Positions 16,714 through 47,168 of a stretch of 64,000 nt of DNA are shown piece by piece. The stretch's first letter is position 1. Each line of letters begins with the position of its first letter. Origin of the DNA: Corallococcus macrosporus DSM 14697 (GTDB taxonomy: Bacteria; Myxococcota; Myxococcia; Myxococcales; Myxococcaceae); assembly GCF_002305895.1 (NCBI RefSeq), contig NZ_CP022203.1, positions 2,458,501 to 2,522,500 on the forward strand, given 5' to 3'. The notes under the pieces are model-generated. The model was not told the DNA's origin, ran no database searches, and saw nothing but the letters and a program-made list of their open reading frames with translations. A program made the translations under genes and the position numbers.

Positions 16714-16743
16714 TTTACACCCCGACGGGGCGTGTGCTACGGA
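16714..16743 (+). promoter_or_regulatory. Candidate promoter of the rimP-nusA operon
   Basis: TTTACA (16714-16719) is followed after 17 bases by CTACGG (or 18 bases by TACGGA). The -35 element is close to the sigma-70 consensus; the -10 is weak. It sits just upstream of the leader hairpins before rimP and after the divergent nitrilase start. The start point is inferred only. Confidence 0.35.
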
Positions 16744-16752
16744 CGCCCCCGA

Positions 16753-16808
16753 CATTTTTCGATGATGCACTTCGAAAAGTGGGCCGCGTGCCCGCTTTTC
16801 GTGTTTTT
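16753..16808 (+). promoter_or_regulatory. Antiterminator/terminator attenuator in the rimP-nusA leader
   Basis: Two exclusive RNA folds share one strand. Fold 1 pairs 16753-16762 with 16772-16781 (10 pairs including one U-G, nine-base loop). Fold 2 pairs 16773-16784 with 16790-16801 (12 pairs including one U-G, five-base loop) and is followed by TGTTTTT. Fold 1 would hold the 5' arm of the terminator and allow read-through. A further stem, 16727-16733 with 16743-16749, lies upstream. The arrangement is that of an attenuator in front of the operon that encodes NusA. Confidence 0.6.
16773..16808 (+). terminator. Intrinsic terminator upstream of rimP
   Basis: A 12-pair stem (CGAAAAGTGGGC with GCCCGCTTTTCG, one U-G) with loop CGCGT is followed at once by a T-tract (TGTTTTT). 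It ends 20 bases before the rimP ATG and points in the direction of rimP transcription. No gene on the plus strand precedes it, so it cannot be the end of an upstream plus-strand transcript visible here. Confidence 0.75.
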
Positions 16809-16827
16809 GGAGGCTGGTTTCCCGCTT

Positions 16828-17313
16828 ATGTCGGAGAAGAACCTCAAGCAGACGGTGGAGGAGCGGGCCCTGGCCCTGCTCGAACCCATTGTCGCGGGTG
16901 AAGGCCTGGAGCTCGTGGACCTGGAATTCCTCCGGGAGCGCGAGGGCTGGGTGCTCCGGTTGTTCATCGACAAGCCGGGTGGCCGCGTCGGGCTGGACGA
17001 GTGCACCCAGGTGTCGCGCGCGGTGGACCCATCGCTCGACGTGGAGGACTTCATCCCCCACGAGTACAGCCTGGAGGTCTCCAGCCCCGGAGTGGACCGG
17101 CCGCTGCGGAAGCCGGCGCACTTCGAGCGAGTGAAGGGACAGAAGGTGAAGGTGAAGACGTTCGGCCCGGTGGGAGAGCCCCCGCGCAAGAACTTCACCG
17201 GCACGCTGACCGAGGTGGCAGGCGACGGAATCTCGGTGGAGGTGGAAGGGGCAGGAACCTTCCACATCCTCTTCAAGGACATCGCCAAGGCGAACCTGGA
17301 GTTCCAGTTCTAG
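16828..17313 (+). CDS. rimP: Ribosome maturation factor RimP
   Basis: 161 residues from ATG (MSEKNLKQTVEERALALLEP), with GGAGG 14 bases upstream, a rather long spacing. The frame stays open upstream to an ATG at 16762 that would add 22 residues encoded by the leader hairpin, judged unlikely. Family motifs: GLELVDLEFLREREGWVLRLFID, YSLEVSSPGVDRPLRKP and the Sm-like C-terminal domain. RimP binds the 30S subunit and helps late assembly. First gene of rimP-nusA-ylxR-infB. Confidence 0.94.
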   Translation: MSEKNLKQTVEERALALLEPIVAGEGLELVDLEFLREREGWVLRLFIDKPGGRVGLDECTQVSRAVDPSLDVEDFIPHEYSLEVSSPGVDRPLRKPAHFERVKGQKVKVKTFGPVGEPPRKNFTGTLTEVAGDGISVEVEGAGTFHILFKDIAKANLEFQF

Positions 17314-17375: not shown

Positions 17376-19076
<1,701 letters not shown>

Positions 19077-19095
19077 GCTAGGCAAGGGAGGGAGC

Positions 19096-19431
19096 GTGGG
19101 GCGCCCGGCTGGCCGGCCCAGGCCGGAAGTTCAAGACGCGGGGTCAGGTCCGGTCCGGATGTGCGTCGGATGCGGGTCACGGCGGCCGCAGGCGGAGCTC
19201 ACCCGGTTCGTGGTAGGGCCCGGAGGCGCCATCGAGGTCGACAGGAAGAGGCGGCTGCCAGGACGGGGCGCCTACCTGTGCGGTGCCGGTTGTCTGACGG
19301 CAGCGCTGAAGCGGAAGGCGTTTGGTAGGGCCTTTCGCGGAAAGGCGGGCCAGGTTGACCCGTCGCAGCTCGGACAGGCATGGGAGCAGGGGGTCGGAGT
19401 GGGGAGGGGTGCGGGGGGGAGTGGGTGTTAG
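19096..19431 (+). CDS. ylxR: YlxR (DUF448) RNA-binding protein
   Basis: 111 residues from a GTG start at 19096, chosen because AGGGAGGGAG lies immediately before it and it clears the nusA stop. Upstream ATGs at 19012 and 19045 would overlap nusA. The signature RMCVGCGSRRPQAELTRFV and GRGAYLC (the conserved GRGAYLC motif) is present. YlxR is a small basic RNA-binding protein encoded between nusA and infB in many bacteria. The extra N-terminal 25 residues and Gly-rich tail are not conserved elements. Confidence 0.88.
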   Translation: MGRPAGRPRPEVQDAGSGPVRMCVGCGSRRPQAELTRFVVGPGGAIEVDRKRRLPGRGAYLCGAGCLTAALKRKAFGRAFRGKAGQVDPSQLGQAWEQGVGVGRGAGGSGC

Positions 19432-19512: not shown

Positions 19513-22500
19513 ATGTCGAAGAAGCGCGTCCACGAAATCGCCAAGGAACTCAAGAGCCACGGGATCGAGCTCGACAACAAGGAGGTCGTCACCGAGCTGT
19601 CGAGCCTCGGTTACGACGTCAAGAGCCACTCGTCGTCTCTCGATGACGACCAGGCGACCGCTGCCGTCCAGAAGATCCTGGACAAGCGCAAGCCGAAGCA
19701 GGCCACGCCGCCGGTGACGGCGAAGGGCTTCGTCGTGCGCCGGAAGGTGGGTCCGCCCGCCGGTGCGACCGCGGACAGCGGGGCCGAGGCTTCACACGCC
19801 GCCGAGCCCGCGGCCCCCCCTGAGCTGCCTTCGGCCCCCGAGCCCGTGGCCGCCACGGCCGAGGAGCCGGTGCAGCCGCCGCCCGCGGAGGCGCCTCGCG
19901 CGCCCGCCGAGGCGCCGAGCGCCCCGGAGCCTCAGCATGCCGAGGCCCCGGTCGCCGCCGCGGAGCCGGTCGCTCCGTCCGCTGTCACGTCTACGCCGCC
20001 CGCGCCGGTGGCCGAGGCCCCGAAGGCCCCCGCCGCCGCCGAGGTGGCTTCACCCACGCCCGCCGCCGAGGCCCCACAGGCCCCGGTGGAGGCTCCCCAG
20101 GCTGCCGCTCCGGCTTCCGCCGCCGCGCAGCCTCGTCCCCCTGTCCAGGAGAGCACCACCTTGCCCCAACCCCCCCCCCGCTCACCGGTACCGCCGTCAG
20201 TCCGGACGCCTTCGAGCACTTCCTCGTCCGCGACTGTCGTGTCCCGGGGCCCCGCGCCTGGCTATCCGCAGCGCAGCGGACCCGGTGGCCGTCCCGGTGG
20301 TCCGGGCGGTCCGGGTGGCCGTCCCGGTGGTCCGGGCGGCCCGGGCGGTCGTCCCGGTGGTCCGGGCGGCCCGGGCGGTCGTCCCGGTGGTCCGGGCGGT
20401 CCGGGTGGTCGTCCCGGTGGTCCGGGTGGCCGTCCGTCGTACCAGGGGCCGGGCTCCTACCAGGGCTCCGGCGCGCGTCCCGGACAGGGACCGGTGCGTC
20501 CCACGTCGGCGCCTGGCATGGGCGCGCAGCCCTCCGCCTCCGCGTCGCCTGTTCCGCAGGGCCCCACCATCATGGTTGGCGGCGTGCCGCACGCCCAGGT
20601 GACGCCCACGGGCGCGCAGGCGCGTCCCACGGCGACCCAGGCCGTCGTCATCTCGCGCCCGCTCATCCAGGTGCGCCGCGTGACGCCCACGGCGGGTCAG
20701 GCCAAGCAGTACCCCATGGCGCCGGGCCGCACGGGCATCCCGGAGCGGCGTGAGTACAAGGTCGTCCCGGACCACCTGGGCCGTGGCCGCGAGCTGGTGG
20801 ACGTCTCCAAGAACAAGGAGCGTGGCCAGCGCAAGCGCACCAGCGGTGATACGCAGAGCGTGTCCAAGCAGGAACTGACGGACATGGTCTGGGGCCGCGT
20901 CACCATCCCCATCCGTGGCAAGAAGCGCAAGCCCACGAAGAAGGGCGCCAAGACGCAGATCACCCAGATGGCCGAGGAGAAGAAGGTCATCAAGCTCCAG
21001 GAGGGCATCTCCGTGTCCGACCTGGGCCAGCGCATGGGTGTGCGCAGCAACGAGCTCATCAAGAAGCTGATGGGCCTGGGGAAGATGGTCACCGCGAACC
21101 AGATGGTGGACGCGGACACGGCGGAGACGGTCGCCAGCGACTACGGCTGGAAGATCGACCGCGTGGGCTTCGAGGTGGAGGACTACCTGCCCGAGGTGGA
21201 GGCCCGTCCCGAGGACGAGCGTCCCCGTCCGCCGGTGGTCACCATCATGGGCCACGTCGACCACGGCAAGACGAGCCTCCTGGACGCCATCCGGAAGGCC
21301 AACGTCGCGCAGGGTGAGGCCGGTGGCATCACCCAGCACATCGGCGCGTACAGCATCAGCACCGCGCGCGGTGACGTGACGTTCCTCGACACGCCGGGCC
21401 ACGAGGCCTTCACGTCCATGCGCGCCCGCGGCGCCGACGTGACGGACATCGTGGTGCTGGTGGTGGCCGCCGACGACGGCGTGATGCCGCAGACGGTGGA
21501 GGCCATCAAGCACGCGAAGGCGGCCGAGGTGCCCATCGTCGTCGCCATCAACAAGATGGACGTGCCGGGCGCCAACCCGGACCGCGTGAAGAAGGACCTG
21601 GCCAACCACGAGCTCACCCCGGAAGAGTGGGGCGGCGACACCATCATGGTTCCGGTCTCCGCGAAGACGAAGGAGAACCTGGAGCTGCTGCTGGAGAACC
21701 TGGCCCTCCAGGCCGAGGTGCTCGAGCTGTCGGCCAACCCGAACCGTCCGTCGGTGGGCGCCATCATCGAGGCCAAGCTGGACCGCGGCCGTGGCCCGGT
21801 CGCCACGGTGCTGGTGCAGGAAGGCACGCTCAAGCTGGGTGACGCCGTCGTCACCGGCTCGCACTACGGCCGCATCCGCGCCATGACGAACAGCCGCGGC
21901 GAGCAGGTGAAGGAAGTGATGCCGGGCTACTGCGCCGAGGTCGTCGGTCTGTCCGGCGTGCCGAGCGCGGGTGACGCCATCAACGTGGTGGCGGACGAGA
22001 AGGCGGCCAAGCAGATCGCCGAGCACCGCGGCATGAAGGACCGGCAGACCGAGCTGTCCAAGGTCAGCCGCGAGTCCCTGGAGCAGCTCTTCGCCAAGAC
22101 GAAGGCGGGCGGCGGCCCCAAGGAGCTGCGCGTCGTCATCAAGGCGGACGTGCAGGGCTCGTCCGAGGCCGTCAAGCAGGCCGTCCAGAAGCTGTCCACC
22201 CACAAGGTCAAGGTGGAGGTGGTGCACTCCGGCGTGGGCGCCATCACCGAGGGCGACGTGATGCGGGCGGCGGCCTCCAAGGGCGTGGTGCTCGGCTTCA
22301 ACGTCAACCCCGAGTCCGGTGCCGAGGCCGCGGCCAAGGCGCAGGAGGTGTCGCTCAAGAGCTACTCCATCATCTACGAGCTCATCGACGGGGTTCGCAC
22401 GGAGATGGAGGGCCTGCTGGAGCCCATCCGCACCGAGCGCAAGCTGGGCCGTGCGGAGGTGCGCAACACGTTCAACGTGCCGCGCCTGGGCACCATCGCC

Positions 22501-22734
22501 GGTGCGGCGGTGCTGGACGGTGTGATGAAGCGCGGCGCCTTCGTTCGCCTCATGCGCGAGAACAAGCAGTTGTTCTCCGGCAAGATGGCGTCGCTGCGGC
22601 GCTTCAAGGACGACGTCAAGGAAGTCGCGCAGGGCTTCGAGTGCGGTATCGGCATCGAGAGCTTCAACGACCTCAAGCCCGGTGACATCATCGAGGCCTA
22701 CGAGATCGAAGAGACTCGGCAGAGCCTCACCTAG
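19513..22734 (+). CDS. infB: Translation initiation factor IF-2
   Basis: 1073 residues, longer than most IF2 proteins. The first 60 residues form the IF2N-type domain ([19 protein letters not shown]). Then comes a Pro/Ala/Glu-rich stretch (about 60-250), a Gly-rich repeat (about 257-310), a basic segment and a second IF2N domain (about 495-545). The GTPase domain has [13 protein letters not shown] and NKMD; domains II, III and IV follow. IF2 places initiator tRNA on the 30S subunit and promotes subunit joining. A long low-complexity N-terminus is, as I recall, a known trait of Myxococcus IF2. Two strong hairpins follow the stop. Confidence 0.97.
20281..20433 (+). repeat. Gly/Pro/Arg tandem repeat inside infB
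   Basis: About four and a half copies of a 30-base unit encoding [10 protein letters not shown]. The copies are nearly identical at the DNA level (GGTGGTCCGGGCGGTCCG variants), which suggests recent expansion and makes the tract prone to slippage by whole codons. Confidence 0.9.
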
Positions 22735-46793: not shown

Positions 46794-47156
46794 GGGGGCG
46801 ACCTGGTTTCGACGGGGGCAATGAAGTTCGAGACGCGTGCCGAGCTTGTCAGGTAGCTCGTAAATCCAACCCGGCAAAGACACAAAAGCCAACGACAACG
46901 TTGAGCTCGCGCTGGCTGCCTAAAAACAGCCCATAGTGCGCGGTCCCCCCGCCCTCGGCCTGTGGGGTTGGGACAGACCGTCATAATGCAGGCTGGCTAC
47001 CGAGGGCGCCTGGACCCGAGGTAGCGAGACCTTTCCAGGACCGGCTCTGGGTATCCCGTCCGTGGGAGCCTCAGGGACGTAGCAAATCGCGGACTACGCA
47101 CGTAGGGTCGAAGAGCGGACGGCTTTCGGACGCGGGTTCGATTCCCGCCGCCTCCA
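46794..47156 (+). ncRNA. ssrA: tmRNA (SsrA)
   Basis: The 5' end GGGGGCGACCTGGTTTCGAC and the 3' end with T-arm GCGGG-TTCGATT-CCCGC and acceptor CGCCTCC are diagnostic. The seven-pair acceptor stem contains the G3-U70 wobble that alanyl-tRNA synthetase reads. The discriminator is A at 47156 and CCA is not encoded (CTG follows). The tag frame is 46888-46923: ANDNVELALAA then TAA. Length 363 bases. With SmpB it rescues stalled ribosomes and marks the nascent chain for ClpXP through SspB, both encoded near 9.3-10.3 kb. Confidence 0.97.
46888..46923 (+). other. tmRNA tag-peptide reading frame
   Basis: Resume codon GCC followed by AAC GAC AAC GTT GAG CTC GCG CTG GCT GCC and TAA. The tag ANDNVELALAA keeps the AND part bound by SspB and the hydrophobic LAA end read by ClpX in other bacteria. 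Confidence 0.93.
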
Positions 47157-47168
47157 CTGAGAAGAACG

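Follow-up and report, generated by a model that had tools for sequence, protein, structure and literature searches.

The locus analysed here raises the question of whether the short stretch of DNA upstream of rimP in Corallococcus macrosporus DSM 14697 encodes an RNA switch that decides between termination and transcription of the rimP-nusA-infB operon and, if so, which signal that switch reads. The window, that is, the whole stretch of DNA that was analysed, is 64,000 nucleotides long. Among predicted transcription attenuators the rimP-leader has been described as the most ubiquitous, its motif is claimed to be widespread, and NusA has been proposed as the factor that controls it (Naville and Gautheret 2010, PMC2965389); since most species showed no antiterminator, the mode of switching was not settled. 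The main text of that study names no myxobacteria. In E. coli, NusA represses its own operon (PMC2965389), and according to a review (PMC12288461) B. subtilis NusA is reported to control its own synthesis by stimulating termination in its 5' leader. The initial annotation of this DNA compared the locus with E. coli only and missed the closer precedents, which are the rimP-leader family and the B. subtilis leader.

The elements on which the argument depends are as follows.

16714..16719, + strand: predicted -35 element TTTACA, found in this form in much of the family; its counterpart in other families is TTGACC or TTGACT, 17-18 bases 5' of a -10 element that starts with TA
16727..16749, + strand: GC inverted repeat in the promoter, rejected as part of the switch, with 7/7 pairs in only 5 of 77 relatives
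16738..16743, + strand: predicted -10 element TACGGA; in 70 of 77 leaders its end is followed by the CATTTT arm after 7-10 bases
16750..16752, + strand: predicted transcription start (CGA), placed by promoter spacing
16753..16762, + strand: antiterminator 5' arm CATTTTTCGA, forming 10 pairs with 16772-16781, with covariation
16763..16771, + strand: antiterminator loop, variable among relatives in sequence and in length (about 3-37 bases)
16772..16781, + strand: antiterminator 3' arm TCGAAAAGTG, 9 of whose 10 bases also belong to the terminator 5' arm
16773..16784, + strand: terminator 5' arm CGAAAAGTGGGC, containing the conserved GTGGGC motif
16790..16801, + strand: terminator 3' arm GCCCGCTTTTCG, the 12-pair partner of 16773-16784
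16802..16808, + strand: terminator T-tract TGTTTTT, interrupted
16809..16813, + strand: GGAGG directly 3' of the T-tract, from its sequence a possible rimP ribosome-binding site
16828..17313, + strand: rimP (PF02576 and PF17384)
17376..19076, + strand: nusA, with NusA_N, S1, KH and HHH domains, encoding the presumed regulated product and presumed effector
19012..19431, + strand: ylxR-like gene (PF04296), start uncertain
19513..22734, + strand: infB (IF-2), assigned from its ORF and sequence and placed in the same operon by position

Pfam confirms RimP, NusA and YlxR, while infB, DUF503, rbfA and truB, which lie downstream, are named from their ORF sequences. With nusA 3' of rimP in the window, the leader sits, by gene order, ahead of a NusA-encoding transcript. 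Within infB, positions 20276-20431 hold about five copies of a 30-base repeat that forms a Gly/Pro/Arg-rich stretch in the N-terminal region of IF-2.

The terminator stem (16773-16784 with 16790-16801) has 12 pairs, one of them G-U, around the loop CGCGT, with a folding energy of -19.3 kcal/mol (z -4.3), and the rimP ATG (16828) lies 19 bases downstream of the end of the T-tract at 16808. A terminator-like match is by itself not rare, one being found against 1.0 expected per 1.5 kb, so that the evidence beyond chance lies in conservation. The 12-pair terminator with a T-tract that the initial annotation had placed before rimP is conserved across the class (Myxococcia): in 66 leaders, three G-C pairs of GGGC/GCCC are invariant and the fourth is C-G in 64 and U-G in 2. 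The known rimP-leader contains this very GGGC/GCCC hairpin; the two have in common the position before the rimP-nusA-infB operon, the GGGc...gCCC stem and a T-stretch 4-130 bases before the gene, here TGTTTTT (PMC2965389); GGGC/GCCC is also seen in the E. coli leader. Rfam RF01770 ('rimP') is likewise a terminator-bearing rimP leader, described as gammaproteobacterial, and its model, which matches E. coli at 102 bits, gives no match to the window up to E 10. A search of the window with Rfam yields, at the gathering score, only a tmRNA gene elsewhere (46794-47159; RF00023, 180 bits), and up to E 10 only matches at chance level.

The DNA upstream of rimP was collected from about 110 relatives, the nearest named ones being M. 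xanthus and M. vastator, and in nearly all of them the same order is found: promoter, CACATTTT(T)CG, variable loop, CGAAA(A)GTGGGC, loop, GCCC[AG]CTTTT, T-tract and rimP. The predicted promoter 5' of the arm consists of a TTTACA or TTGAC(C) box, a spacer of 17-18 bases and a -10 box starting with TA, and its spacing makes a transcription start near 16750-16752 likely, so that the antiterminator 5' arm would be the RNA's own 5' end. One genome of the family, G094 (L089, G094:C131:2940-3170), has the promoter and has lost the whole leader; there a promoter of the same kind lies about 10 bases 5' of the rimP start codon, as expected if transcription starts at that position, and the rimP mRNA of this genome is probably leaderless or near-leaderless. 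The initial annotation had also made a GC stem at 16727-16749 part of the switch. This repeat exists in the DNA (z -2.0) and is probably outside the RNA, because it overlaps the predicted -10 element and is complete in so few relatives, and that part of the proposal is given up. A leader peptide was considered and rejected as well. ATGs at 16762 and 16765 open a stop-free frame (MMHFEKW...), which over 16762-16827 passes through the terminator and continues in phase into rimP; it is probably due to chance, since the loop lengths differ among relatives.

The competing stem pairs CATTTTTCGA with TCGAAAAGTG; its energy is -8.8 to -10.4 kcal/mol, and one of its 10 pairs is U-G. Because the terminator and the antiterminator have 16773-16781 in common, they are mutually exclusive, and such a pair of exclusive stems with evolutionary support is what characterizes a two-state attenuator. 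When the competing stem was compared with shuffled sequences, 1 of 200 folded equally well; an independent duplex-versus-shuffle test on the near-identical leader L002 gave p = 0.003, and for most members of the class the duplex energy relative to shuffled upstream DNA gave p values from 0.003 to 0.05. Over the 66 leaders, 94.5% of cells are paired, 5 of the 10 pairs show two-sided changes, the double-change cells number 57, and the covariation score is 0.252, compared with 0.147 in shuffles and at most 0.115 in slid registers. On each of three measures (paired cells, double-change cells, covariation score) the stem exceeds every one of 500 shuffles, and it also exceeds every slid register.

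On a tree built from RimP and NusA of 30 genomes, with 16 of 27 inner branches well supported, the two sides of pair 12-40 change together at least three times and those of pair 13-39 at least four times; each of these pairs is formed in 28 of the 30 genomes. The changes convert U-A/C-G into C-G/G-C through one-base changes in length that match between the run of U and the run of A, and they are concentrated on two pairs, those in the core of the arms being mostly near-invariant. The pairing is RNA-like, with U-G at one position of the stem in 60 of 66 leaders. The outermost two pairs of the terminator are often disrupted, 38-71 in 41/66 leaders and 39-70 in 29/66, and the bases concerned mostly keep a partner in the antiterminator (base 39 pairs with 13 in 61/66), which argues that the antiterminator is under a constraint of its own. 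RNAalifold applied to the leader alignment picked the terminator only, an outcome that is expected since both stems use one common arm. By four tests the competing stem is under selection. The initial annotation had proposed this 10-pair stem, which uses the terminator 5' arm, and had suggested a search for covarying pairs in other myxobacteria; within the class the stem proves to be both conserved and covarying, in the leader alignment as well as on the tree.

The distribution of the leader was mapped with a covariance model (A1) made from the 66 leaders, which were drawn from upstream of rimP by construction. With this model, 130 of the roughly 138 genomes of the class each yield one strong match. 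The genome from which the window comes contains a single such match, of 64 bits; the runner-up has 20 bits (E 0.4), and this search reveals no convincing second copy there. The class genomes that lack a match comprise G121, G123, G124 and G008 (also no rimP match), G125-G127, which belong to a small-genome genus with a diverged leader, and G094; G129 and G093 have no antiterminator 5' arm. A weak match in G178 (L220), which lies far from rimP and is an unrelated terminator, was rejected. In the leaders of family f3 (L107, L108, L112-L133) an extra GC hairpin (CCCGGG...CCGGG) lies within the antiterminator loop, and it is duplicated once, in L123.

The order in which the two stems form was modelled by folding the growing transcript from 16751 onward, treating some 9 bases as covered by the polymerase and using energies that ignore the polymerase and its factors. 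In the model the antiterminator is complete (-10.4 kcal/mol) before the second arm of the terminator emerges. While the RNA 3' end lies at 16806-16808, the lowest energy (-15.6) belongs to a hybrid in which 6 antiterminator pairs coexist with 7 of the terminator; the terminator by itself is then partial and reaches -11.8 to -13.7. From 3' end 16809 onward the full terminator is favoured. Across 76 leaders, at least 5 antiterminator pairs are kept in 88% at 4 free bases past GCCC and in 29% at 8, with the crossover at about 6-7. The two stems are thus predicted to be nearly balanced as the polymerase reaches the T-tract, and from the position of the crossover the decision would fall within the polymerase's short stay on that tract.

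Together these elements would make up an attenuator, about 57 nucleotides long, with which the rimP-nusA-ylxR-infB mRNA begins. Its opening bases, CAUUUUUCGA, would pair with UCGAAAAGUG once the latter exits RNA polymerase, and the UCGAAAAGUG stretch would also serve as the lower part of the terminator 5' arm. When the GCCC side has been made, the terminator would nucleate at the GGGC/GCCC tip and displace the 5' hairpin pair by pair during the passage of the polymerase over the weak T-tract. Since the stems are close in energy at this point, a slower polymerase or a favoured exit hairpin should lead to termination, and fast passage should lead to read-through into rimP-nusA-infB. The attenuator-like switch of the initial annotation is well supported by class-wide conservation, by the covariation of the competing stem and by the predicted co-transcriptional competition. 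The leader is real and conserved and has the design of an attenuator. Its structures, their conservation and covariation, the promoter spacing, the folding order and the link to nusA come from computation, and it probably terminates transcription in vivo.

The identity of the signal is approached by gene arrangement and by analogy. NusA prolongs pauses and helps hairpins to form in the exit channel (reviewed in PMC12288461), so more NusA should raise termination, which would constitute negative feedback on its own operon. The B. subtilis nusA-operon leader, as the same review describes it, is alike in placing attenuation before a NusA-encoding operon and probably in its logic. The informative case is genome G038, in which rimP and nusA are on different contigs: the leader is found directly 5' of nusA, and rimP has neither the leader nor nusA next to it (L219, G038:C10:25400-26400; L194). 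The arrangement in this one genome suggests that the leader travels with nusA and not with rimP. Taken with the B. subtilis precedent, it makes control of the leader by NusA plausible. NusA feedback is the best-supported reading of the attenuator, and it is with moderate confidence that the leader is interpreted here as a lineage-specific, antiterminator-bearing rimP-leader attenuator most likely used for negative feedback by NusA.

Other uses of the same structure have to be weighed against NusA feedback. The switch could be real and be read by another factor, such as the CspA-type cold-shock RNA chaperones, coupling the operon to temperature or growth. These proteins bind U-rich RNA and melt hairpins, the 5' arm is rich in U and hardly varies, and a cold-stress study that cites Bae et al. 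reports that E. coli nusA-infB transcripts go up in the cold; the arm is conserved, however, as the pairing partner of the terminator arm and not merely as a U-rich sequence, and this use of the switch is judged unlikely. An equally low probability is given to a leader without any signal, in which the antiterminator keeps read-through at a constant level or prevents premature termination. Such a fixed setting could come from the predicted balance at the T-tract, and no ligand-binding domain is visible in the leader, but covariation across the whole class suggests that a function has been maintained, and downstream lies the gene for a termination factor, which in B. subtilis is preceded by a feedback attenuator.

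It is considerably less probable still that the 5' hairpin, although predicted to begin 0-3 bases from the RNA 5' end, mainly protects the end of the mRNA or makes a stable small leader RNA, with its overlap with the terminator being secondary: a protective hairpin need not use the terminator 5' arm, and the bases common to both stems are kept via coincident changes in nearly all genomes. That the CATTTTTCG ... CGAAAAGTG repeat, an inverted repeat right downstream of the promoter, is a DNA operator for a repressor is very improbable, since the spacing of its arms ranges from about 3 to 37 bases, at times with an inserted hairpin, and its prevalent U-G pair forms in RNA and not in DNA.

Beside feedback by NusA on its own operon, a further and more tentative reading is that the 5'-end antiterminator and the balanced stems make a speed sensor that requires no ligand, read-through reporting both the speed of the polymerase and its occupancy by NusA. 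This is possible, though distinctly short of probable; if it were true, the operon encoding this elongation factor would respond directly to elongation itself.

The general rimP-leader motif is reported to show no visible antiterminator (PMC2965389), whereas the present leader has a covarying one at the 5' end throughout the class. The antiterminator described in several Gammaproteobacteria belongs to a second, upstream tandem terminator (PMC2965389), unlike that in the window. The greA and rnk leaders (PMC2965389, PMC6829880) are likewise short attenuators of transcription-factor genes for which clear antiterminators have been reported, but they concern other genes and other sequences. What is new is the conserved, covarying 5'-end antiterminator across a class, the predicted balance with the terminator, and a leader that appears to travel with nusA. 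One whole class now shows a covarying antiterminator, in a leader of fewer than 60 nucleotides that has no separate sensor domain, and this could offer a minimal system in which to study the part that NusA and elongation speed play in deciding termination, as well as the setting of the level of an essential transcription factor.

Outside the class, the antiterminator is non-significant in single-leader tests except in L049 (p 0.007); an outlier of the same class, G161, gives p 0.043. A matching stem looks convincing by eye in G185 and G187 (CATTTAG/CTAAGTG), in G180 and in L049, and most Polyangia-like leaders have only about 5 antiterminator pairs. An antiterminator across all Myxococcota was considered and is not claimed, since the stems that can be seen by eye in several other classes are non-significant in these tests. 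The design of a 5'-end antiterminator may recur outside the class with other letters, as in the CATTTAG/CTAAGTG pair, and NusA feedback elsewhere evidently needs no antiterminator of this kind. The GTGGGC/GCCC motif is also present in Desulfobacterota-type and Acidobacteria MAGs (L037, L049, L039, L043), which agrees with the wide distribution claimed for the rimP-leader (PMC2965389). In two of these non-myxobacterial MAGs, L037 and L049, a tRNA-like gene lies directly 5' of the rimP leader, an arrangement that resembles metY-rimP in E. coli.
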